NCBI GenBank assembly: GCA_005402585.1
Contig: BIFP01000014.1
Span: forward strand, 62,001 to 126,000
DNA from: Micromonosporaceae bacterium KJ-029
Lineage (GTDB): Bacteria; Actinomycetota; Actinomycetes; Mycobacteriales; Micromonosporaceae
Length of the DNA: 64,000 nt
Direction of reading: 5' to 3'
The translations under genes and the position numbers were made by a program. Under the pieces are notes generated by a model, which searched no databases, was not told the origin of the DNA, and worked only from the letters and a program-made list of their open reading frames with translations. Positions within the stretch are counted from its first letter, which is position 1; each line of letters begins with the position of its first letter. Positions 51,051-63,897 of this stretch are shown here, one piece after another.

Positions 51051-52898
51051 ATGTCCCTGCTCGACACCGTCAACCAGCCCGACGACCTGCGGCGGCTCAC
51101 CCACGACCAGCTGCGGGTGCTCGCCGGGGAGATCCGGGCGTTCCTGGTCGAGGCGATCTGCCGGCGTGGCGGGCACCTCGGCCCCAACCTCGGCATGGTC
51201 GAACTGACCATCGCGCTGCACCGGGTGTTCCGGTCCCCGCACGACCGGATCATCTTCGACACCGGTCACCAGGCGTACGTCCACAAGCTGCTCACCGGCC
51301 GCCAGGCCGGGTTCGCCCAGCTGCGCGGAGCGGGCGGCCTGTCCGGCTACCCCCGGCGGGCCGAGTCGCCCCACGACCTGGTGGAGAACTCGCACGCCTC
51401 CACCGCGCTGTCCTACGCCACCGGCCTGTGTCGGGCGTACGCCCTGAACGGCCCCGACCGGGCCGTGGTCGCGGTGATCGGCGACGGCGCCCTCACCGGC
51501 GGCCTGGCCTGGGAGGCGCTGAACAACCTGGCCGAGTCGCCCGGCCGGGTGGTGGTCGTGCTCAACGACAACGGCCGCTCGTACGCGCCGACCGTGGGCG
51601 GCCTGGCCGCGCACCTCGCGACGCTGCGCGCCGAGGCCGGGTCGGACCAGGACGGAGCGGCGACGAGTTCCGACTTCTTCCGGACGCTGGGGCTGGACTA
51701 TCTCGGCCCGATCGACGGACACGACGTGCCCCAACTCGAAGCGGCGCTGCGGCAGGCCCGAGAGTCGGACCGGTCGGTCGTGGTCCACTGCGTCACCCGC
51801 AAGGGGCACGGCCACCCACCGGCCGAGGCCGACGAGGCCGACCGGCTGCACACGGTGGGCGTGGTCGATCCGGGCACCGGGCAGCCGGCCGGGACCTCCG
51901 GCCCGACCTGGACCGACGTCTTCGCCGAGGAACTCGTCGCCATCGGCGGGCACCGGTCGGACGTGGTGGCGGTCTCCGCGGCGATGCTGGGCCCGACCGG
52001 GCTCGCCGGCTTCGCCGCACGCTACCCCGACCGGACCGTCGACGTGGGCATCGCCGAGCAGCACGCCATCACCTCGGCGGCCGGGCTCGCGTTCGGCGGC
52101 AAGCACCCGGTGGTGGCGGTCTACGCCACCTTCCTGAACCGGGCGTTCGACCAGGTACTGCTCGACGTGGCGCTGCACCGACTGCCGGTCACCCTGGTGC
52201 TCGACCGGGCCGGGATCACCGGCCCGGACGGGCCGAGCCATCACGGCATGTGGGACCTGGCCATGCTCGGCGCCGTGCCCGGCCTGCGGGTGGCCGCCCC
52301 GCGGGACGCGGCCTCGCTCCGCGAGGAGCTGCGGGAGGCGGTCGACGAGCACCGGGGACCCACGGTGCTGCGGTTCCCCAAGTCCCGCGTCGACCAGAAC
52401 CTACCCGCGGTGGAGCGGATCGCCGGCGTGGATGTCCTGCGCCGGGCACCGGGTGCGCAGGTGCTGCTGGTCGCCGTGGGAGCGATGGCCGGGCCGACCC
52501 TGCGGGCGGCGGAACTGCTGACGGCGGGCGGTGTCGAGTGCACCGTGGTCGACCCCCGGTGGGTGCGGCCGGTCAACCCGCAGGTCGCCGTGCTGGCCGC
52601 CGAGCACGCGCTGGTCGTCACCGTCGAGGACGGAATCCGCGACGGTGGGGTGGGCACGGCCGTCGCCCAGAGCCTCACCGACGCCGCCGTCGGTACGCCG
52701 GTGTGCGCCCTCGGCCTGCCCACCGCGTTCGTGCCGCACGGCGAGCGGCCCGACCTGCTCGCCGAGTACGGCCTCGACGCCCACGGCATCTGCGCGGACG
52801 TGCTGCGCCGGCTGTCGTGGCTCGGCACCGGCAGCCGGGACACGTCGCGGACGGTGCGGGCGAGCGTCCGCGGCCGGCTGACCCCGCTCGCCGGTTGA
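51051..52898 (+). CDS. dxs: 1-deoxy-D-xylulose-5-phosphate synthase
   Basis: This 615-residue thiamin-diphosphate enzyme condenses pyruvate and glyceraldehyde-3-phosphate, the first committed MEP-pathway step. It shows [15 protein letters not shown] (about 69-83), the TPP site [16 protein letters not shown] (about 143-158), catalytic Glu in [12 protein letters not shown] (about 335), [15 protein letters not shown] and the C-terminal transketolase domain. GGAGAG precedes the start (an ATG at 51048 is also possible). As first gene of a hopanoid operon it is probably a pathway-dedicated second dxs copy, raising isoprenoid supply; a housekeeping copy elsewhere is expected but not seen here. 40 bp separate it from hpnC. 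Confidence 0.93.
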
Positions 52899-52938
52899 GC
52901 CGCCGCCGCTCGTGTCCAGAGGAAGGAGAGAAGCACGG

Positions 52939-53796
52939 ATGGGTCCATCAGCCATCGCCCCTGACATACGTCGGGTGGAGCAGGCCCGGGCGCGGGAGAA
53001 CTTCCCGGTCGCCCTGCGGGTGCTGCCCGCGCGGTACCGCCGTCACCTCGTCGCGGTGTACGGCTACGCCCGCCACGTCGACGACCTCGGCGACGAACCG
53101 CTGGACGACGGGCTCGACCGGCTCGCCGCCCTGGACCACGTCGAGGCCGAGCTGCACGACCTCTACGCGGGCGCCGACGTACGGCACCCGGTGCTGCGGG
53201 CCCTCGCGCCCACCGTGGCCGAGTGCCGGCTGCCGCTGGACCCGCTCGTCCGGCTGATCGAGGCGAACCGGGTCGACCAGCACGTCACCCGCTACGAAAC
53301 TTTCGAGCAGCTCGTCGGCTACTGCACCCTGTCCGCCAACCCGGTCGGCGAACTCGTCCTGCACATCTTCGGGCAGGCCGACGCGGCGGCCGTCGCGTTG
53401 TCCGATCGGGTCTGCACCGCTCTGCAACTCGTCGAGCACCTGCAGGATGTGGCCGAGGACCACCGCCGTGGCCGGGTCTACCTGCCGGCGGCCGACCTGG
53501 AACGGTTCGAGGTCACCGAGGCGGACCTCGCCGGCCGCACCGCCAGCCGGCGGCTGCGGGAGCTGATCGGATTCGAGGCGGAACGGGCCCGTGCCTGGCT
53601 CGACGCCGGCGCTCCACTGGTGTCGGCGCTGCACGGCTGGGGCCGGCTCGCGGTCGGCGGCTATCTGGCCGGCGGACGGGCCACGCTCGACGCACTGGCC
53701 GCCGCCGACCACGATCCGTTGGCGGTCACCGTCCGGCCCCGCCGCCAGCAGATCCTCGGCAACTGGCTGGCCGCCACCGTCCGGAGGGCCGGATGA
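52939..53796 (+). CDS. hpnC: Hydroxysqualene synthase HpnC
   Basis: This 285-residue squalene/phytoene-synthase-fold enzyme has a first Asp-rich motif HVDDLGDE (about 46-53) and a second helix motif LVEHLQDVAEDHRRGRVYLP. In the bacterial squalene route HpnC converts presqualene diphosphate (made by HpnD) to hydroxysqualene. The Asp-rich motif is shorter than in HpnD, as usual for HpnC. GGAAGGAG lies 10 bases before the ATG. Its stop overlaps the hpnD start by four bases. Confidence 0.92.
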   Translation: MGPSAIAPDIRRVEQARARENFPVALRVLPARYRRHLVAVYGYARHVDDLGDEPLDDGLDRLAALDHVEAELHDLYAGADVRHPVLRALAPTVAECRLPLDPLVRLIEANRVDQHVTRYETFEQLVGYCTLSANPVGELVLHIFGQADAAAVALSDRVCTALQLVEHLQDVAEDHRRGRVYLPAADLERFEVTEADLAGRTASRRLRELIGFEAERARAWLDAGAPLVSALHGWGRLAVGGYLAGGRATLDALAAADHDPLAVTVRPRRQQILGNWLAATVRRAG

Positions 53797-54665
53797 CCAC
53801 GACGACCACCCGAACCGAAGCCGCCTACCGGCACTGCGAGCAGATCACCCGCACCCAGGCGGCCAACTTCGCGTACGGCATCCGGCTGCTGCCGGCGCCG
53901 AAACGGCGGGCGCTGTCGGCCATCTACGCCACCGCCCGCCGCATCGACGACATCGGCGACGGCACACTGCCTCCCGACGACAAGCTGGACGCGCTGGCCG
54001 GGACCCGGGCCGCCCTGCACCGGCTCCCCGGGGACAGCGGTGCCGACCCGGTACTCGCCGCGCTCGGCGACGCCGCGACGCGGATGCCGATCCCGCTGGC
54101 CGCCTTCGACGAGCTCATCGACGGTTGCGCCGCGGACGTGACCGGCCGCCGGTACGACACCTTCGACGACCTGCTCTGGTACTGCCGCTGTGTGGCCGGA
54201 TCGATCGGCCGGCTCTCCCTCGGCGTGTTCGGGACCCGCCAGCCGGACCGGGCCACCCCGCTGGCCGACGCGCTGGGGGTGGCTCTGCAGCTGACCAACA
54301 TCCTGCGCGACCTGGTCGAGGACCGGGTCGACGGCCGCGTCTACCTGCCGGCCGAGGACCTGGACCGGTTCGGCTGCACCCTCCGGCTGGACGGGACCGG
54401 CTTCGCGGATCCACCGGAGCGGCTGATGGAGCTGGTCCGCTTCGAGGCCACCCGGGCCGCCCGCTGGTACGAGGTCGGCCTTCGGCTGCTGCCCATGCTG
54501 GACCGGCGCAGCGCGGCCTGCACCGCCGCGATGGCCGGCATCTACCGCCGCCTGCTCACCCGGATCGCCGCCGATCCGCTGGCGGTCACCCGCAGTCGCG
54601 TTTCGTTGCCGGGCCGGGAGAAGGCCTGGGTGGCGGCGCGCGCTCTCGTCGGCCGTGGCGCATGA
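53793..54665 (+). CDS. hpnD: Presqualene diphosphate synthase HpnD
   Basis: This 290-residue enzyme of the squalene/phytoene synthase family condenses two farnesyl diphosphates to presqualene diphosphate. Two intact Asp-rich motifs, RRIDDIGDG (about 52-57) and NILRDLVEDRVDGRVYLP (about 170-187), bind Mg-diphosphate. The ATG start overlaps the hpnC stop (ATGA), and the stop overlaps hpnE, so expression is coupled. Length and order match HpnC-HpnD-HpnE operons. Confidence 0.94.
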   Translation: MTTTTTRTEAAYRHCEQITRTQAANFAYGIRLLPAPKRRALSAIYATARRIDDIGDGTLPPDDKLDALAGTRAALHRLPGDSGADPVLAALGDAATRMPIPLAAFDELIDGCAADVTGRRYDTFDDLLWYCRCVAGSIGRLSLGVFGTRQPDRATPLADALGVALQLTNILRDLVEDRVDGRVYLPAEDLDRFGCTLRLDGTGFADPPERLMELVRFEATRAARWYEVGLRLLPMLDRRSAACTAAMAGIYRRLLTRIAADPLAVTRSRVSLPGREKAWVAARALVGRGA

Positions 54666-56041
54666 CCGGGCCGGCCGCGCAGCCGGGCGGCGGTTCCGGC
54701 ACGGTGTGCGTGATCGGCGGTGGGCTGGCCGGGATCGCCGCGGCGATCCGGCTCGCCGACCTCGGCCTGCCCGTGGCACTGCTGGAGACCCGGCCGGAGC
54801 TGGGCGGCGCGACGTACTCCTTCCGCCGCGACGGCCTCAGCGTGGACACCGGCCAGCACGTCTTCCTGCGCTGCTACCACACCTACCGGCGACTGTTGGA
54901 CCGACTCGGCACGGCCGGCGACACCGATGTGCAGTCGCGGTTCACGGTGCCGGTGCTGCTGCCGGGACAACAGCCGCAGGTGCTGGTCCGGCGCCGGCTG
55001 CCGGCCCCGGCGCACCTGCTGCCGGCCCTGGCCGGATACCGGCTGCTCAGCCCGGTGGAACGGCTCGCCGCCGTCCGGGCCTGCGCCGCGCTTCGGCACG
55101 TCGACCCGGACCTGCCCGCCACCGACGGGAGCAGCTTCGGCGACTGGCTCACCACGCACGGGCAGAGCCGCCGGGCGATCCGGCGGCTCTGGGACCTGAT
55201 CACCGTGGCGGCCCTGAACCTGCCCAGCACCCACGCGTCGCTGGCGCTGGCGGCACGGGTGTTCCGCACCGGACTGCTGGAGGCCGCCGACGCCGGTGAC
55301 ATCGGCCGGCCGCTGGTCCCGCTCACCGACCTGCACGGCGTTCCCGCCCGTCGGCTGCTCGACCGGCTCGGCGCCCGGGTCCACACCCGGGCGCGGGTGC
55401 GGTGGATCCGACCGGAGGCGACCGGATTCCGGATCGGTGTGGACGACACCGAACTGGACGCGGACGCCGTGGTGCTGGCGGTGCCGCACCAGGCCGCCGC
55501 GTCGCTGGTACCGCCCGCCGCCGCGCCCGACGCCGAGCAGTGGCGCCGGCTGGGCGCGGCGCCGATCGTCAACGTGCACCTGCGCTACGCCGCCAAGGTC
55601 ACCGACCTCGGCATGGCCGCCGCCGTGGAGTCCCCGGCACAGTGGATCTTCGACCGTTCGACGCCGGGCGGGGACGGCGAACAGCATCTGGTGGTGTCGC
55701 TGTCAGCCGCCGACGCGGAGATCGAGCGGCCGGCGGCGGAGCTGGTGGCGGCGCAACGCCAGGCGCTCGCCGATCTGTTCCCGGCCGCGCGGCACACCCC
55801 GGTACGCGACGCGTTCGTGACCCGGGAGCCCAAAGCCACCTTCCGGCAGGCGCCCGGCACCCGGGCGTACCGGCCGGGTCCGGCCACCCGCCTCCCGGGG
55901 CTGGTACTGGCCGGCGCATGGACCGACACCGGCTGGCCGGACACGATGGAGGGCGCGGTGCGCAGCGGCGAGGACGCCGCCGACATCGTCGCCCGCCAGC
56001 TCCTGTCCCGGCCCCGACACCACTCGGAGGCCGCATCATGA
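54662..56041 (+). CDS. hpnE: Hydroxysqualene reductase HpnE (FAD-dependent)
   Basis: This 459-residue flavoprotein of the amine-oxidase/phytoene-desaturase-like family has FAD-binding VCVIGGGLAGIAAAIRLADLG at the N-terminus (about 15-35), then LLETRPELGGATYSF and the C-terminal FAD motif LVLAGAWTDTGWPDTMEGAVRSGEDAA. HpnE reduces hydroxysqualene to squalene, completing the HpnCDE route that replaces squalene synthase. ATGA overlaps on both sides place it between hpnD and the prenyl synthase. Confidence 0.93.
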   Translation: MTGPAAQPGGGSGTVCVIGGGLAGIAAAIRLADLGLPVALLETRPELGGATYSFRRDGLSVDTGQHVFLRCYHTYRRLLDRLGTAGDTDVQSRFTVPVLLPGQQPQVLVRRRLPAPAHLLPALAGYRLLSPVERLAAVRACAALRHVDPDLPATDGSSFGDWLTTHGQSRRAIRRLWDLITVAALNLPSTHASLALAARVFRTGLLEAADAGDIGRPLVPLTDLHGVPARRLLDRLGARVHTRARVRWIRPEATGFRIGVDDTELDADAVVLAVPHQAAASLVPPAAAPDAEQWRRLGAAPIVNVHLRYAAKVTDLGMAAAVESPAQWIFDRSTPGGDGEQHLVVSLSAADAEIERPAAELVAAQRQALADLFPAARHTPVRDAFVTREPKATFRQAPGTRAYRPGPATRLPGLVLAGAWTDTGWPDTMEGAVRSGEDAADIVARQLLSRPRHHSEAAS

Positions 56042-57045
56042 CCGTCGCACGCAGCCGCAGCACGGACCAGATCCAGACCCACGTCGAGCCGGCGATCCGC
56101 GCCCTGCTGGACCGGCTGGATCGGGGCAACCGGCTGGTCGGGGGCTACCAGCTCGGCTACTGGGACGCCGACGGTTCACCCGCCGCCAGCCAGGGCAAGG
56201 GACTACGTCCGGCGCTGGCGCTGCTGTCGGCGCGGGCCACCGGCGCCGAGCCGACCGCCGGGGTGCCGGCCGCCGCCGCCGTGGAACTGGCGCACAACTT
56301 CTCCCTGCTGCACGACGACCTGATGGACGGCGACACCGAGCGCCGCCACCGGCCGACCGCGTGGACCGTGTTCGGGGTCGGCCCCGCCATCCTGGCCGGC
56401 GACGCCCTGATCGGGTTGGCCCACGAGGCGCTCGTCGAGACCCCCGGAGGCTGCCCGGCCGCCCGACGGCTCGCGGTGGACATCCGGGCCCTGGTCTGCG
56501 GCCAGTCGGCCGACCTGGACTTCGAGCGGCGCGACGACGTCACCCTCGACGAGTGCCTGCGGATGGCGGAGCAGAAGACCGCCGCGCTGCTGGCCGGCTC
56601 GTGCGCCCTCGGCGCGATCCTCTGCGGCGGTCCACCGAACGTGATCGACGGGCTGTCCCGCTTCGGTCATCACCTCGGGCTGGCCTTCCAGCTCGTCGAC
56701 GACCTGCTGGGTATCTGGGGTGACCCGCGACGGACCGGCAAGCCGGTCGGTTCGGATCTGCGGGCCCGCAAGCGGAGCATCCCGGTGGTACGGGCGGTGA
56801 CCAGCGGTCAGGCCGCCGGCCGGGCGCTGGCCGAGCGGTACCGCTCGCCGGAGCCGCTGACCGACGAGGACGTGGCCCGGGTGAGCGCGCTGATCGAGGC
56901 GACCGGAGCCCGGGACTGGACGGCGCAGCGGGCGGCGCAGGAGACCGAGCGGGCGCAGGCGGAACTCGACGCGCTCGACCTGCCCGACGACGTACGCGAC
57001 GAGTTCGCCGACATCGCCACCTTCACCACCGGACGGGACCACTGA
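56038..57045 (+). CDS. Polyprenyl diphosphate synthase (farnesyl-type)
   Basis: This 335-residue trans-prenyltransferase has a first Asp-rich motif HDDLMDGDTERR (about 91-102) and a second DDLLGIWGD (about 222-230), with the conserved KGLRP and RMAEQKTAAL helices. It elongates DMAPP with IPP; in this operon it most likely makes farnesyl diphosphate for HpnD. Chain length cannot be fixed from motif reading alone. It starts with an ATGA overlap on hpnE and shares one base with shc. Confidence 0.9.
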   Translation: MTVARSRSTDQIQTHVEPAIRALLDRLDRGNRLVGGYQLGYWDADGSPAASQGKGLRPALALLSARATGAEPTAGVPAAAAVELAHNFSLLHDDLMDGDTERRHRPTAWTVFGVGPAILAGDALIGLAHEALVETPGGCPAARRLAVDIRALVCGQSADLDFERRDDVTLDECLRMAEQKTAALLAGSCALGAILCGGPPNVIDGLSRFGHHLGLAFQLVDDLLGIWGDPRRTGKPVGSDLRARKRSIPVVRAVTSGQAAGRALAERYRSPEPLTDEDVARVSALIEATGARDWTAQRAAQETERAQAELDALDLPDDVRDEFADIATFTTGRDH

Positions 57046-58988
57046 TGACCGAGCTGCTGTCGTCGAAGCCGAAGCCCACCACCACGACCCAGGCGGGCGG
57101 GACCGCGTCCGACCCGGCCTGGGTGGCGCTGCGCCGGGCCCGGGAGCACCTGCTCGGGTTGCAGGACGACGCCGGCTGGTGGAAGGGGAACCTGGCCACG
57201 AACGTCACCATGGACGCCGAGGACCTGCTGCTGCGGCAGTTCCTGGGCATCCGGACCGCCGAGCAGACCGCCGAGTCGGCCCGCTGGATCCGCTCCCAGC
57301 AGCTCCCGGACGGCTCGTGGGCCACCTTTCACGGCGGCCCGGGGGACCTCTCCACCACCATCGAGGCGTACCTGGCCCTGCGGTTGGCCGGCGACACCCC
57401 CGACGCGCCGCACCTCGCCGCCGCGGCCCGGTTCGTCCGGGCGCGGGGCGGGCTGGCGGCGAGCCGGGTGTTCACCCGGTTCTGGCTGGCCCTGTTCGGA
57501 CACTGGCCCTGGTCACAGCTGCCGGCCGTCCCACCCGAACTGGTGCTGCTGCCGTCCTGGATGCCGTTCAACGTCTACGACTTCGCGTGCTGGGCCCGGC
57601 AGACCATCGTCCCGCTGTCCATCGTCCGCGCGCTGCGCCCGGTGCGGGACCTCGGCTTCACCGTCGACGAACTGCGCACCCCGGCGGCAACACCGCGACC
57701 GCCACGACTGCCGTCCCGGGCCGGCGTGCTGCACCGGCTGGACCGGCTCGCCAGCGGCTACGAGCGGATCGCCCGGGGACCGGTACGGCGACACGCGCTG
57801 CGCCGGGCCGCCGAGTGGATCGTGGCCCGCCAGGAGGCCGACGGCTCCTGGGGCGGGATTCAGCCGCCATGGGTCTACTCACTGATGGCGCTGCACCTGC
57901 TCGGCTATCCGCTGGACCACCCCGTGCTCCGGGCCGGGCTGGACGGGCTGGAGCGGTTCACGGTGCGCGAGCAGACCGAGGACGGCCCGGTCCGCTGGCT
58001 GGAGGCGTGCCAGTCACCGGTGTGGGACACCGCGCTCGCGGTCACCGCGCTGTCGGACGCCGGGCTCCCGGCCGGGCATCCCGCCCTGGCCCGGGCCGGC
58101 AGGTGGCTCCTCGACGAGGAGATCCGGGTACGCGGTGACTGGTCGGTCCGCCGGCCGACGACCCCGGCGGGCGGTTGGGCCTTCGAGTTCCACAACGACG
58201 GGTACGCCGACACCGACGACACCGCCGAGGTGATCATGGCGTTGCGGCGCACCGACGCGCCCGCCGAGGCCGCGGTGCTGCGGGGCACCCGATGGCTGCT
58301 CGGCATGCAGTGCCGCGACGGCGGCTGGGGCGCCTTCGACGCGGACAACACTCGGGCGATCGTCGGCGACCTGCCGTTCTGCGACTTCGGCGAGGTCATC
58401 GACCCGCCCAGCGCGGACGTGACCGCGCACATCGTCGAGGCGCTGGCGGCGGAGAACTTCGCCGGCACGCCACCGGTACGCCGTGGCGTCTACTGGCTGC
58501 TGCGGGCCCAGGAGCCGGACGGTTCCTGGTTCGGCCGCTGGGGAGCCAACCACGTCTACGGCACCGGGGCGGTGGTGCCCGCCCTGGTGGCCGCCGGGGT
58601 CAAGCCCGGCCACCCGGCGATCCGGGCGGCGGTCGACTGGCTGCTGGCGCACCAGAACCCGGACGGCGGGTGGGGCGAGGACATGCGCTCCTACCGGGAC
58701 CCGTCCTGGCTCGGGCGGGGCGAGTCGACCGCGTCGCAGACCGCCTGGGCGCTGCTCGCGCTGCACGCCGCCGGCCACAGCTCCGCGGAGCCGGCCCAAC
58801 GCGGGGTGCGCTGGCTGGTCGACACCCAGCGGGCGGACGGCGGCTGGGACGAGCCGCACTACACCGGGACCGGCTTCCCGGGCGACTTCTACATCAACTA
58901 CGGCCTGTACCGACTGGTCTTCCCGATCAGCGCGCTCGGTCGGATCCTGAACGCGCGGGGCGGCCTGACGGCCGAGGTGGTGCCGTGA
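57045..58988 (+). CDS. shc: Squalene-hopene cyclase
   Basis: This 647-residue monotopic membrane cyclase turns squalene into hopene/hopanol. The catalytic proton-donor motif DTDD sits at residues 389-392 in [14 protein letters not shown] repeats are spread along the chain ([48 protein letters not shown]), and the C-terminal [17 protein letters not shown] is typical. Its start shares one base with the preceding stop (TGATG), and its stop overlaps the fusion gene by GTGA. Normal family length. Confidence 0.97.
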
Positions 58989-60547
58989 CCGAGCCAGCGA
59001 CGTCCGCCGGTCCGGCCTGGACCCTGTACGCGCCCATGCGGCCGGAGGCCGCAGCGCTGCGGCAAGGGCTGACCGGCCTCGACCCGGGACGGTGGCCGGC
59101 GCTGCGGCGTACCGGCACCGGAGCGCGGCGTGCCCGGTCGGTCGCCGTCGGCCGGCCGGTCGGAGCCACCCCGGTCGCGGTGGCCGGTATCGGTGGCGGG
59201 CTGGCCCCCGGGCTGGCCCCGGGCGACGTCGTGGTGGCCACCGAGGTACGCACCGACCCGCGCGCCGGGCGCCCGGGGCGGCAGGTGCTGCCGATGCCGG
59301 CCGCCGCCCTGCTCGCCGCCGCGCTGCGCCGCCGCGGGCTGCGGGTCCACCTCGGACCGGTCCTGACCACGACCCGGCTGGTCGACGGCGCGGCCCGGAC
59401 CCGGCTGGCCGGGACCGGCGCGCTGGTCGCCGACCTGGAGTCGGCGTGGCTGCTGGGCGGCTGCGACGACCGGCCGACCGCCTGCGTCCGGGTGGTCGCC
59501 GACACCGCGGCCGGATCGCTGTACCGACCGGCCACGCTGCGCCGGATCCGCACCGCCCTGCGGGTGCTGCCCGCGGTGGCGGCGGCCCTGGCCGAGTGGG
59601 CGACGGCAGCCGGCAGCCTCGACGAGGTCCTGCTGGCCTCGCCCCGCTCGTTCTGCGCCGGGGTGGAACGGGCGATCGCGGTGGTGGAACAGGCGTTGCG
59701 CCAGCACGGGCCGCCGGTCTACGTCCGCAAGCAGATCGTGCACAACGCCCGGGTCGTGGCCGATCTGCAGGCCCGGGGCGCGGTCTTCGTGGACGAACTC
59801 GACGAGGTACCCGACGGCGCGCTCACCATCTTCTCCGCACACGGGGTGGCGCCCGCGGTACGCCGGGAGGCCGCCGACCGGCAGCTGCCGGTCATCGACG
59901 CCACCTGTCCCCTGGTGACCAAGGTGCACGCCGAGGCGCGCCGGTTCGCCGGCCGGGGCGACACGGTGCTGCTGATCGGGCACTCCGGCCACGAGGAGAC
60001 CGAGGGCACCCTCGGCGAGGCGCCCGAGCGGATCCGGCTGGTGCCGGACGCGGCCGCCGCCGAGACGGTGCAGGTGGCCGACCCGTCCCGGGTGTCCTAC
60101 CTGGTGCAGACCACGCTGGCGGTGGACGAGGCGACCGGGGTCGTCGATGCGCTGCGCCGCCGTTTCCCGGCGCTGACCGGGCCCGGCTCCGACGACATCT
60201 GCTACGCCACCACGAACCGGCAGCGGGCGATCACCGCGGTTGCCGAGCGGGCCGACGTGGTGCTGGTGGTCGGATCGATCAACTCCTCCAACTCCCGCCG
60301 GCTGGTCGAGGTCGCCGAGCGGGCCGGCACGCGGTCCCACCTGGTCGACGACGTGGGCGGCGTGGACCTGCGCTGGCTGGCCGGCGCCGCCACGGTCGGG
60401 GTGACCGCCGGCGCGTCGGCACCGCCCGGCCTGGTCGACGAGCTGGTCGCGGCACTCAGCGCGCTCGGTGCGCGGGAGGTGAGCGAACACACCACCGCGG
60501 TCGAGGACGTGAGTTTCACCCTTCCCAAGGAGGTACGCCAGCCGTGA
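58985..60547 (+). CDS. hpnG/ispH: HpnG-IspH fusion (nucleoside phosphorylase + HMBPP reductase)
   Basis: This 520-residue protein reads without a break through two enzymes. The N-terminal ~210 residues resemble HpnG, the hopanoid-associated phosphorylase that cleaves adenine from adenosylhopane: [34 protein letters not shown] and [17 protein letters not shown]. The C-terminal ~300 residues are a full IspH. Its three cluster cysteines are Cys224 in [10 protein letters not shown], Cys308 in [11 protein letters not shown] and Cys406 in ICYATTNRQ, with [18 protein letters not shown] and TAGASAP motifs. The linker is short ([19 protein letters not shown]). The GTG start is fixed by overlap with shc; the stop overlaps hpnH. 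Such a fusion is unusual to my knowledge. Confidence 0.88.
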
Positions 60548-61545
60548 GCATGCCGATGCGCCAGAGCCTGCGGATCGCCAGGTACCTGGTCGAACAGAAG
60601 CTGCGCAGGCGAAAGCGGTTCCCGCTGTTGCTGGAACTGGAGCCGTTGTTCGCCTGCAACCTCAAGTGCGCCGGCTGCGGCAAGATCCAGCAGCCGGCGA
60701 ACCTGCTGAAGCGTCGGATGCCGGTGGAACAGGCACTGGCCGCCGTGGAGGAGTGCGGAGCGCCGATGATCTCCATCGCCGGCGGCGAGCCCCTCATGCA
60801 TCCCGAGATCGACACCCTGGTCGCCGAGCTGGTGCGCCGGAAGAAGTTCGTCTTCCTCTGCACCAACGCGGTCCTGCTGCCCAAGAAGATCGACAAGTTT
60901 CGGCCGTCGCCGTACTTCGCCTTCACCGTGCACATCGACGGCCTGCGCGAACGGCACGACGCGGCGGTGTGCAAGGAGGGCGTCTTCGACGCCGCGGTGG
61001 CGGCCGTACGGGAGGCCCAGCAGCGCGGCTTCCGGGTCACCACCAACACCACCTTCTTCAACACCGACACCCCGCAGACCGTCATCGAGGTGCTCGACTA
61101 CCTCAACGACGACCTGCGGGTGGACGAGATGATGATCTCCCCGGCGTACGCCTACGAGAAGGCGCCGGACCAGGACCACTTCCTGGGCGTGACGGAGACC
61201 AGGGAGTTGTTCCGCAAGGCCTTCTCGGGTGGCCGGCGGGCCCGCTGGCGGCTCAACCACTCCCCGCTGTTCCTGGACTTCCTGGAGGGCCGGGCGGACT
61301 TTCCCTGCACCGCGTGGGGCATCCCGTCGTACTCACTGCTGGGCTGGCAGCGGCCCTGCTACCTGATGGCCGACGGGTACGCCAGCACCTACCAGGAGCT
61401 GCTGGACACCACCGACTGGGACAGCTACGGCCGGGGTCGCGACCCCCGCTGCGCGAACTGCATGGCGCACTGCGGGCACGAACCGACCGCGGTGCTGGCG
61501 ACGATGTCCTCGCTGCGGCAGTCGCTGCGGGCGGCACGCGGTTAG
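60544..61545 (+). CDS. hpnH: Radical SAM adenosylhopane synthase HpnH
   Basis: This 333-residue radical SAM enzyme joins 5'-deoxyadenosyl to hopene, giving adenosylhopane, the first C35 hopanoid. The cluster motif is Cys38-x3-Cys42-x2-Cys45 ([15 protein letters not shown]), followed by [16 protein letters not shown]-terminal Cys group ([12 protein letters not shown]) resembles a short auxiliary motif conserved in HpnH. GTG start with GTGA overlap to the fusion gene; its substrate product is then processed by the HpnG half upstream. Its TAG stop shares its last base with the first base of the 161-bp element. Confidence 0.95.
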
Positions 61546-61705: not shown

Positions 61706-62461
61706 TTAGCTGGACCCAAACCGGGTGGCCAGGCGACGGTACAGCGCGGGCAGCAGCCCGCGTACCGCCACCGGCAGGCGCAGCCAGCCCGGGACGTACA
61801 CCTCGGCCCGGTTCCGGGCGATTGCGTCGGTCAGTGCGGCAGCCACCCGTTCCGGTGGCAGCGGTCGGGGCCGGCGGCGCCGGTACGGCTGACCCCGGCG
61901 AGCGAAGAACGGAGTGTCCACCACCGTGGGCACGAGCGTGCTGACGGTCACGCCACGACCGGACAGTTCCAGCCGGAGGCTCTCGGCGAAGGCGTCCAGC
62001 CCGGCCTTGCTGGCCGCGTAGACCGCTTCCCCGGCCACCCCGAGCCGCCCGGCGATCGAGCCGACGAAGACCAGGTGGCCGCCGTGATGGCACATGCCGG
62101 GCAGCAGCGCCCGGGTCAGCTCGATCGGCGCGCGCAGGTTCACCGCGAGCAGTTCGTCGGCGAGCGGGTCGGCCATCCCGGCGAACGGGCCGGCCCAGCC
62201 GATGCCGGCGTTGTTGACCAGCACGTCCACCCGGGCGTGCCGGGCCAGGGCCCGCTCGGCCAGCTCGCGGCCGGCGCCCGGTCGGGCCAGGTCGGTCAGC
62301 AGCGTGGTGACGCCGGTCTCGGCGGCGAGCCGGGCCAGCCGGTCGGGGTCCCGGCCGGCGGCCACGACCTGACTTCCCGCGTCGGCCAGCCGCCGGGCGA
62401 GGGCGGCGCCGATACCCGACGAAGCGCCGGTGACCAGCACCACGGCGCCGGTCAGCCGCAT
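61706..62461 (-). CDS. Short-chain dehydrogenase/reductase
   Basis: This 251-residue classical SDR has an NAD(P) motif TGASSGIGAALARRLADAG, an NNAG motif in VLVNNAGIGWAG, catalytic Ser in VFVGSIAGRLG and the pair Tyr-x3-Lys in YAASKAGLDAFAESL. It belongs to the branch often paired with lipid enzymes, and here its start overlaps the acyltransferase stop by 10 bases. A fatty-acyl or ketoacyl reductase role is inferred from that coupling. The stop codon TAA is formed with the flank of the 161-bp element. Confidence 0.9.
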   Translation of the reverse strand: MRLTGAVVLVTGASSGIGAALARRLADAGSQVVAAGRDPDRLARLAAETGVTTLLTDLARPGAGRELAERALARHARVDVLVNNAGIGWAGPFAGMADPLADELLAVNLRAPIELTRALLPGMCHHGGHLVFVGSIAGRLGVAGEAVYAASKAGLDAFAESLRLELSGRGVTVSTLVPTVVDTPFFARRGQPYRRRRPRPLPPERVAAALTDAIARNRAEVYVPGWLRLPVAVRGLLPALYRRLATRFGSS

Positions 62462-63897
62462 GGCATCTCCGGTGGCGCCGGTCCGCGTCCGGGCGGGCCG
62501 GAAGCGACCACCGCCGACACGTCGACCGGCCGCTCGTCGGCGACTGCCCGATCGTCGGCGGCCGGCGCGCGATCGACCTCGGCGAGCAGTTGGGCCAGTT
62601 CGGCGTGCAGGGCGGCGACGAACGCGGGACCGGCCTCGGCCAGCGAGCCGTCCAGCAGCGCGCCGACCTCGAAGGTGTCGCCGAAGCGCAGCACACCGAC
62701 CCCGACGGGCACTCCCTCGGCGAGCGCGACCACCGGGGTGGCCCCAATGAGCGGCGCACCGGCCAGCACCTGCGAGCGCATCCGCGCCGGGACGTAGGAG
62801 ACGATCACGTTGAGGTGCCGGCTGCTGTAGAAGCGCCGGGCCAGGGCGGCGTGCAGCGGGGCGGGCAGTGCGCCCATCGCCCGCATGACCAGGCCAGCCG
62901 CCTCGGGTTCCCCGCTGTGCAGCGCGGTGCGCAGCGACTGCCGGACCATGGCGACGCGGATTCCGGGCGGGATGCGTCGCACCGGAAGGTCGAGCGTGAC
63001 GGCACCGGTCCAGTTCCCCTGCGTGGGCGCCCGCCGTCGGAGGTCGTGGGAGACCGCGAACATCGCCCGCAAGCGGGGCGGCGCCGACCCGGGATGGACC
63101 CGACCCAGTGCCCCCGCGGTCAGGGCCAGCATGAGTTCGCTGGCGTGCGCCTGGCAGGCGCGGGCCGCGCGGGACACCTCGGCGGCGGGCAGGGTGGCGG
63201 TGACCAGGAGCCGGCGCGGTGAGCCGAGCGGACGGTTGAGCACGGTGGCCGGGGCACGGCCCTGCCCGGCCAGGCGGGCCAGCCCACGGGCGATGCGGCC
63301 GACCCGATGTGCCGTGTCCCGGACCCGGCCACCCGGCGCCGCCCGGTCCCGGTCCGGCGCCGCCCCGTCCCGGACCGGTACCGGCCCGACCGGCTTCACG
63401 GGGCGGGCGGTGACCGGGTCGAACAGCCGTTGGATGACCGCGATCACCGACAACCCGTCGCCGAGGCAGTGGTGCAGTTTGATCGCGGCCCGGGTACGCC
63501 CGTCGGGCAGCCCGCCGACCAGCAGGATCTGCCAGGGTGGCCGGTCCAGGGCCAGCGGCTCGGACCAGAACCGGTCCACGGCGGCGCTGCCGTCGTCTCC
63601 GGGTGCGACCCGCACCTCGACGAGATGGGCGGCGGGATCGACGTACCGGTCGACCACCCAGCCGGGCCGGCGCCCCGGCCCCCGGCTGACCAGCCGGCGG
63701 CGCAGGGTGGTCATCGCGGGTAGTCGCCGTGCCAGCAGCGCGGCCAGTCCCCCACTGGTGAGCGCGGTGCCGTCGGGCAGGGGCCCGAGTTCCAGCACCA
63801 CACCGATCTGTTGCGCCACCGTGGCCGACTGCACGTACCGGAAGAACGCGTCCTGCGGGCGCAGCGGCCAGCTGGCCGGCCGGTGCGCGGCCGGCAC
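62452..63897 (-). CDS. Wax ester synthase/diacylglycerol acyltransferase-like protein
   Basis: This ~481-residue WS/DGAT family acyltransferase has LRPQDAFFRYVQSAT at the N-terminus and the catalytic HHxxxDG motif as LHHCLGDGLSV. The C-terminal domain is typical (RFYSSRHLNVIVSYVPAR and GAPLIGATPVVALAEGVPVGVGVLRFGD). It transfers acyl groups from acyl-CoA to alcohols or diacylglycerol. The frame stays open to the window edge, so a start beyond 64000 is possible; the GTG at 63897 gives the usual length. It is coupled to the SDR. Confidence 0.85.
   Translation of the reverse strand: MPAAHRPASWPLRPQDAFFRYVQSATVAQQIGVVLELGPLPDGTALTSGGLAALLARRLPAMTTLRRRLVSRGPGRRPGWVVDRYVDPAAHLVEVRVAPGDDGSAAVDRFWSEPLALDRPPWQILLVGGLPDGRTRAAIKLHHCLGDGLSVIAVIQRLFDPVTARPVKPVGPVPVRDGAAPDRDRAAPGGRVRDTAHRVGRIARGLARLAGQGRAPATVLNRPLGSPRRLLVTATLPAAEVSRAARACQAHASELMLALTAGALGRVHPGSAPPRLRAMFAVSHDLRRRAPTQGNWTGAVTLDLPVRRIPPGIRVAMVRQSLRTALHSGEPEAAGLVMRAMGALPAPLHAALARRFYSSRHLNVIVSYVPARMRSQVLAGAPLIGATPVVALAEGVPVGVGVLRFGDTFEVGALLDGSLAEAGPAFVAALHAELAQLLAEVDRAPAADDRAVADERPVDVSAVVASGPPGRGPAPPEMPCG

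Follow-up and report, generated by a model that had tools for sequence, protein, structure and literature searches.

In actinobacterial hopanoid operons a single gene can encode both a phosphorylase-type domain in the HpnG position and a complete IspH, joined in one uninterrupted reading frame. This fusion is real and widespread and is no isolated oddity. Each half is also found decayed where the other is kept, and this reciprocal decay, which is the new aspect of the system, suggests that the two halves work separately. The gene probably encodes one bifunctional protein that arose by merger of neighbouring operon genes, each half being kept for its own reaction. The gene was analysed within a 64,000-nucleotide stretch of the genome of Micromonosporaceae bacterium KJ-029, a soil actinomycete; the stretch is here called the window (Table 1).

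Table 1. Features of the hopanoid operon and of its fused gene, in window coordinates
Feature	Position	Strand	Basis
dxs	51051..52898	+	TIGR00204, 544.3 bits (cut-off 465.95); frame open from 50838, start chosen
hpnC-like, squalene/phytoene synthase family	52912..53796	+	Pfam
hpnD-like	53793..54665	+	cross-matches with hpnC, adjoining squalene/phytoene synthase
hpnE-like	54659..56041	+	frame only
Polyprenyl synthase (ispA-like)	56038..57045	+	Pfam
shc, squalene-hopene cyclase	57045..58988	+	NCBIfam, Pfam
Fused gene, HpnG-position phosphorylase and IspH, 520 aa	58985..60547	+	open frame, domain matches
Phosphorylase-type N-terminal domain, residues 1-211, with E21, E152 and D173	58985..59617	+	Pfam, NCBIfam, alignment, model
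Helix 183-211, connecting both domains without a linker	59531..59617	+	AlphaFold2 model
IspH domain, residues 214-520	59624..60544	+	TIGR00216; E. coli IspH alignment
Codon of cluster cysteine 224	59654..59656	+	alignment
Codon of cluster cysteine 308	59906..59908	+	alignment
Codon of cluster cysteine 406	60200..60202	+	alignment
AAGGAGGT, likely hpnH ribosome-binding site within the last fused-gene codons	60527..60534	+	sequence match
hpnH, radical SAM and DUF3463	60550..61545	+	Pfam; GTG at 60544 a possible start

The fused gene and its two domains

The initial annotation had described a single 520-codon frame, and the frame is indeed open throughout, from a GTG that overlaps the shc stop codon (GTGA) to a TGA at 60545-60547, two bases before the hpnH ATG; a stop near residue 210, which had been looked for, is absent. 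Family models place a phosphorylase (PNP_UDP_1, 33.3 bits, cut-off 25.1) at residues 61-185, which gives the N-terminal half a phosphorylase-family match, and LYTB (296.1 bits, cut-off 24.5) at residues 215-491. The fused protein has a calculated mass of 54.0 kDa and is modelled by AlphaFold2 with a pLDDT of 92.0 and a pTM of 0.89, the connecting helix leading directly into the IspH strand of residues 214-219. Foldseek comparison of this model gives target TM-scores of about 0.9 with E. coli IspH and of 0.56-0.70 with MTA/SAH nucleosidases and other nucleoside phosphorylases. The matches include PDB 9ql0, whose title describes crystals of E. coli IspH grown in the presence of adenosine, a curious circumstance in that the fused partner of IspH should act on an adenosyl lipid. 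Rfam gives no match anywhere in the window.

The C-terminal domain has the features of a complete IspH. It passes the curated cut-off of TIGR00216 (293.5 bits against 187.85) and that of the subfamily model NF002190 (391.8 against 389), and narrowly misses the equivalog model NF002189 (439.4 against 444). The three cluster cysteines that had been read from the sequence are borne out by alignment with E. coli IspH, in which His, Glu, Thr, Ser and Asn positions that we take to be substrate-binding residues also coincide. All three cysteines occur together with the N-terminal domain in one chain in 102 of the 120 listed relatives. Between intact fusions, dN/dS over the last 95 codons is 0.13-0.30 (eight overlapping pairs), which supports purifying selection on the operon IspH.

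The N-terminal domain has a nucleoside phosphorylase fold, as indicated by alignment, the AlphaFold2 model and Foldseek, with E21, E152 and D173 in the places taken in MTA/SAH nucleosidases by the catalytic Glu, Glu and Asp. Among the 120 listed relatives E21 is kept in 117, E152 in 120 and D173 in 111, the remaining 9 having Glu at this last position. The domain lies beside shc and hpnH in the window, and is accompanied by hpnH at 74 of 80 named loci (the best 80 of 126). The HpnG model TIGR03468 is its top NCBIfam phosphorylase model and is matched by all 17 of 17 related N-terminal domains, with scores of 45.2 bits for the whole protein and 49.7 for the domain that lie below the curated cut-off of 187.1. 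The label HpnG hence depends on operon position and catalytic residues, which support an enzyme working like HpnG that falls outside strict membership by score. Thus the earlier reading of the first 210 or so residues as HpnG stands as regards the phosphorylase domain, its position and its catalytic residues, and fails as regards the family score. HpnG itself is termed a putative phosphorylase in the available text of PMC12583986.

The operon and its host genome

The fused gene is one of a series of closely spaced genes for hopanoid synthesis. Two of these, at 53793..54665 and 54659..56041, are presumed to be hpnD-like and hpnE-like, the former in view of its likeness to the adjoining squalene/phytoene synthase and the latter in view of its operon position. 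The alternative hpnH start would overlap the fused-gene stop. Downstream of hpnH, on the opposite strand, are a short-chain dehydrogenase gene (61706-62461) and a gene of the wax ester synthase/diacylglycerol acyltransferase type (62452-63897).

As had been proposed, the operon carries the first and last enzymes of the MEP pathway, dxs and ispH; ispG is absent from it and is found in single copy elsewhere in the genome. A check for a separate ispH located one at G000:C20:266656-267489, and a further dxs lies at C16. Since the genome already has another IspH and dxs, the operon represents an extra copy of the first and last MEP enzymes, and it is a fair inference that this pair serves precursor supply in this genome. 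A long dxs match is present at only 14 of the 80 named loci (best 80 of 126), so that dxs is not a constant companion of the fusion. In both Micromonospora rubida and Micromonospora sp. MW-13 the operon dxs is itself fragmented (L052 2996-3844, L053 3722-3907), next to an intact fusion.

Distribution of the fusion

With residues 1-212 as query, 148 protein matches at E ≤ 1e-5 were obtained among 7996 scored candidates, 120 of which are the listed relatives, and a scan of named genomes gave 126 relatives. Among the best 80 of these 126, IspH coverage marks 62 as full fusions; a further 3 retain a remnant of IspH, and 15, including one (L127) that ends at a contig edge, lack an in-frame IspH. 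At none of the 80 loci does a separate ispH gene adjoin hpnG. Full fusions are found in Micromonospora, Plantactinospora, Dactylosporangium, Actinopolymorpha, Sinomonas, Arthrobacter, Amycolatopsis, Prauserella, Pseudonocardia, Frankia, Parafrankia, Aldersonia, Asanoa, Rugosimonospora, one Phytohabitans and various metagenome genomes. Lone HpnG proteins related to the fused domain occur in Acidimicrobiia metagenome genomes and in Wenjunlia. The two-domain protein is often named only IspH in the sources, and a survey of product names would therefore miss HpnG in actinobacteria.

In a sample of the phylum the domain is present in 28 of 396 genomes at E ≤ 1e-12. In the window's own family it is present in 54 of 354 genomes, and 45 of the 54 carry fusions (34 recognised by spanning matches, 10 read at the locus, with G746 cut by its contig, plus G709). 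Among the remaining family genomes three (G025, G057, G091) have only the last IspH lobe and five (G012, G036, G050, G070, G086) at most a tail; G166, G128, G075 and G132, whose matches extend into the N-terminal part but where no HpnG domain was found, were left out of the fusion count. For G103, G021 and G002 one TGA within the match had raised the suspicion of split genes or a recoded stop, which was rejected: the halves are open in one frame and the stop is C-terminal.

Some copies lie apart from the usual setting. The last of the 54, G612, and also G617 have a lone HpnG-type domain near which no further operon gene was found; G617 carries a full fusion as well (L236 8180-8755 and L237 3615-4091 represent G612 and G617). 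In G008, counted among the 45, the fusion is not part of a hopanoid operon and D173 is lost. Micromonospora pattaloongensis has a fusion without nearby shc or hpnH (L095 10001-11443, from the same genome as L044), in which the D173 aspartate is missing and IspH has an unusual tail.

Fusion genomes generally have an additional IspH. Each of the 34 family genomes recognised by spanning matches matches the fusion protein two or more times, the second match covering IspH in at least 17, and an additional IspH is present in 44 of 46 distinct fusion genomes (48 genome entries). It was not found in two metagenome genomes, G755 and G782, where the fusion was considered as the sole IspH; G784, with a domain near-identical to that of G782, has another IspH, and G782 is thus probably just incomplete. 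The lone-HpnG genomes of L110 and L113 have one IspH each.

Loss of the IspH half from hopanoid operons

Across the compared sequences, the IspH half appears to have been deleted in frame repeatedly, with HpnG intact. The collapsed forms keep the HpnG residues, most retain only the last IspH lobe, and their breakpoints differ. In a quick HpnG tree with 111 intact and 25 decayed rows there are at least 18 changes of label, or 6 when the count is confined to loci and the window. This tree was built from 152 of 206 distinct domains, with the intact database proteins represented by every third one and with labels set by IspH coverage; 14 stand-alone and 2 other rows lie outside the count; the decayed rows include the lone domains of G612 and G617, and the pairs L092/L199 and L109/L198 are each the same genome twice.

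The retained IspH remnant looks relaxed, as judged from one tested pair of collapsed copies. In two collapsed Phytohabitans the remnant has a dN/dS of 1.39 (bootstrap 0.79-2.54) and the HpnG half one of 0.46; other comparisons lie at 0.51-0.90, namely 0.60 and 0.90 for the remnant against an intact copy, and 0.51 and 0.62 for the remnant of one metagenome copy. In two of four pairs of collapsed proteins, similarity is higher in the last lobe than in HpnG. With a collapsed model as query, the 50 best Foldseek matches are all nucleoside phosphorylases and nucleosidases, with no IspH among them. A functional IspH lobe in the collapsed forms was considered and is made less likely by the Phytohabitans ratio and by the copies with at most a tail, though less so in view of the other, lower ratios.

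Apparent loss of the HpnG half in encapsulin clusters

The opposite change is suggested by IspH genes that stand alone. A quick tree of 97 IspH, which has long outgroup branches and 31 weakly supported forks, unites 45 fused with 13 unfused sequences in a single clade (SH-aLRT 99) that is separate from the main group of housekeeping IspH. The 13 unfused sequences lie inside the fused clade at a node with a support of 96 that they share with 37 fused IspH. A type 2 encapsulin gene (with a cNMP-binding domain) and a polyprenyl synthase gene are near all 12 of the unfused IspH genes for which flanks are available (L032, L033, L035-L043, L045); a terpene synthase resembling two queries is near 11 of these 12 and dxs is present at one, and no flank of the 12 has a match to shc or hpnH.

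Upstream of IspH and in frame with it, a broken HpnG stretch can be recognised at L036, L038 and L042 (E 3.8e-12, 2.7e-8 and 1.1e-8, for 13 frames), a weak remnant is present at L033, and in 9 of 13 no significant HpnG match was found. From the position of the unfused IspH inside the fused clade together with these wrecks of HpnG, IspH seems to have left the fusion, and HpnG seems to have decayed where hopanoid genes are absent. The HpnG remnant was also considered as an encapsulin loading tag, which is unlikely, as 9 of the 13 IspH lack a significant HpnG match. Other encapsulin cargos are described with disordered N-termini in the available text of PMC8346489.

A likely ribosome-binding site inside the fused gene

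The last codons of the fused gene contain a likely ribosome-binding site for hpnH. A Shine-Dalgarno match of at least six bases, at most 25 bases from the hpnH start, is present at 59 of the 74 named loci with hpnH and lies inside codons of the upstream gene at 58 of the 74, counts that are not independent as the loci are kin to each other; a comparable match is found at 3.9% of 1600 random ATGs. Lone Acidimicrobiia HpnG genes also end in Shine-Dalgarno-like codons, and genus-g12 copies have no recognisable IspH, yet end in the same manner. The fusion is kept without an embedded site in Frankia and Parafrankia, where the gap to hpnH exceeds 500 bases, and in Plantactinospora and Micromonospora sp. 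HM5-17, where it is 80-90 bases.

Perhaps, then, the fusion stays in frame partly through the embedded site, as translational coupling would favour in-frame deletion. Since the collapsed proteins P0031 and P0033 cluster with relatives that lack the embedded site, namely Plantactinospora and Micromonospora sp. HM5-17, coupling cannot account for every in-frame decay.

Function of the fusion

Under the preferred reading of a bifunctional protein with separately acting halves, the N-terminal half would remove adenine from adenosylhopane, the HpnH product, and the C-terminal half would act as a second IspH that, with the operon dxs, enlarges the supply of isoprene units. Early in actinobacterial history an ispH gene may have been acquired between hpnG and hpnH and then have joined hpnG in a single frame, which would have been retained partly because, in many lineages, the hpnH ribosome-binding site sits in its last codons. 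Each half would be retained only where its own reaction is needed, with IspH lost in many hopanoid operons and HpnG lost in copies relocated to encapsulin terpenoid clusters. The full fusions, the copies with only the last IspH lobe and those with at most a tail form a natural series, and the encapsulin clusters form a reverse one; both show how a gene fusion can fall apart and make the role of each half testable.

The join itself might be functional, either by keeping IspH where hopanoids are assembled or by balancing precursor supply with side-chain tailoring. The wide occurrence of the fusion, its retention across many families and the rigid predicted junction with its high pTM are in keeping with this, and the lack of a separate ispH beside hpnG in the best 80 loci could mean that the join is useful; however, each half has repeatedly been lost while the other was kept, and the two reactions are not consecutive and lie far apart in the pathway, so that we regard a functional join as unlikely. 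On the same grounds the proposal in the initial annotation that the join coordinates supply with tailoring is not supported; such coordination may exist at the level of the whole operon. In a bolder version, which we consider quite unlikely, the rigid fusion would function within a complex for hopanoid assembly in which IspH sits beside the radical-SAM enzyme HpnH, both iron-sulphur enzymes draw on one reductant source, supply is tied to side-chain output, and from which the encapsulin-cluster IspH was recruited.

A very unlikely reading is that the IspH half is no longer an enzyme and has become a structural or regulatory part of HpnG. A second IspH in nearly all fusion genomes and a last lobe that is kept in many collapsed forms and predicted to fold would fit such a role; most relatives, however, retain the cluster and substrate residues, intact IspH halves have low dN/dS, the remnant lobe looks relaxed in the sole collapsed pair tested, and five family genomes have at most a tail. 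It is highly improbable that IspH is produced on its own, additionally or for the most part, from an internal start, the fusion protein not being the working form: in-frame GTG codons exist at residues 194 and 198, but neither has a good ribosome-binding site ahead of it as judged by eye, and the next GTG, at residue 227, is already beyond the first cysteine. The chance that an assembly or frameshift error joined two genes is practically nil, as the same fusion recurs in many genomes and metagenomes, and 102 of 120 listed relatives with both the N-terminal domain and three cysteines speak against chance as well. What remains preferred is the merger of two neighbouring genes whose products act separately.

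Comparison with known systems

As far as the literature was searched (hopanoid, HpnG, IspH/lytB and encapsulin papers, mostly outside subscription journals), no description of an HpnG-IspH fusion was found, and none is given in the available text of PMC10663253, PMC13001223, PMC5462960, PMC12583986, PMC8346489, PMC4447401 or PMC10745605. The fused protein resembles HpnG (TIGR03468) in its top NCBIfam phosphorylase model, its position beside shc and hpnH and its catalytic residues, and differs in the 45-50 bits that its domain scores against 187.1 and in carrying IspH. It resembles IspH/LytB (TIGR00216; for example E. coli structure 3ke8) in the cut-off passed, the fold, the cluster cysteines and the substrate residues; IspH is usually a separate protein, whereas here it stands behind a phosphorylase domain and belongs to an operon-linked clade.

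Type 2 encapsulin terpenoid clusters, Family 2B in the available text of PMC8346489, where IspH is not named for them, are like the present system in the 12 loci with a fused-clade IspH, with clear HpnG remnants in three, and unlike it in having no shc or hpnH match. Their IspH is thereby tied to hopanoid operons, a link not found described in the literature searched.

Other fusions offer partial parallels. The IspH-ribosomal protein S1 model NF000907, which scores 202 bits on the fused protein against a cut-off of 624, likewise joins an MEP enzyme to an unrelated protein, with a different partner. IspDF, in the available text of PMC13001223, unites MEP enzymes despite non-consecutive steps, again with different partners. 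The hpnC-hpnD fusion of subdivision 2 Acidobacteria, as reported in the available text of PMC5462960, is also a merger of adjoining hopanoid operon genes; it unites two squalene-synthesis genes of one family, whereas the fusion described here unites a tailoring enzyme with a precursor enzyme.
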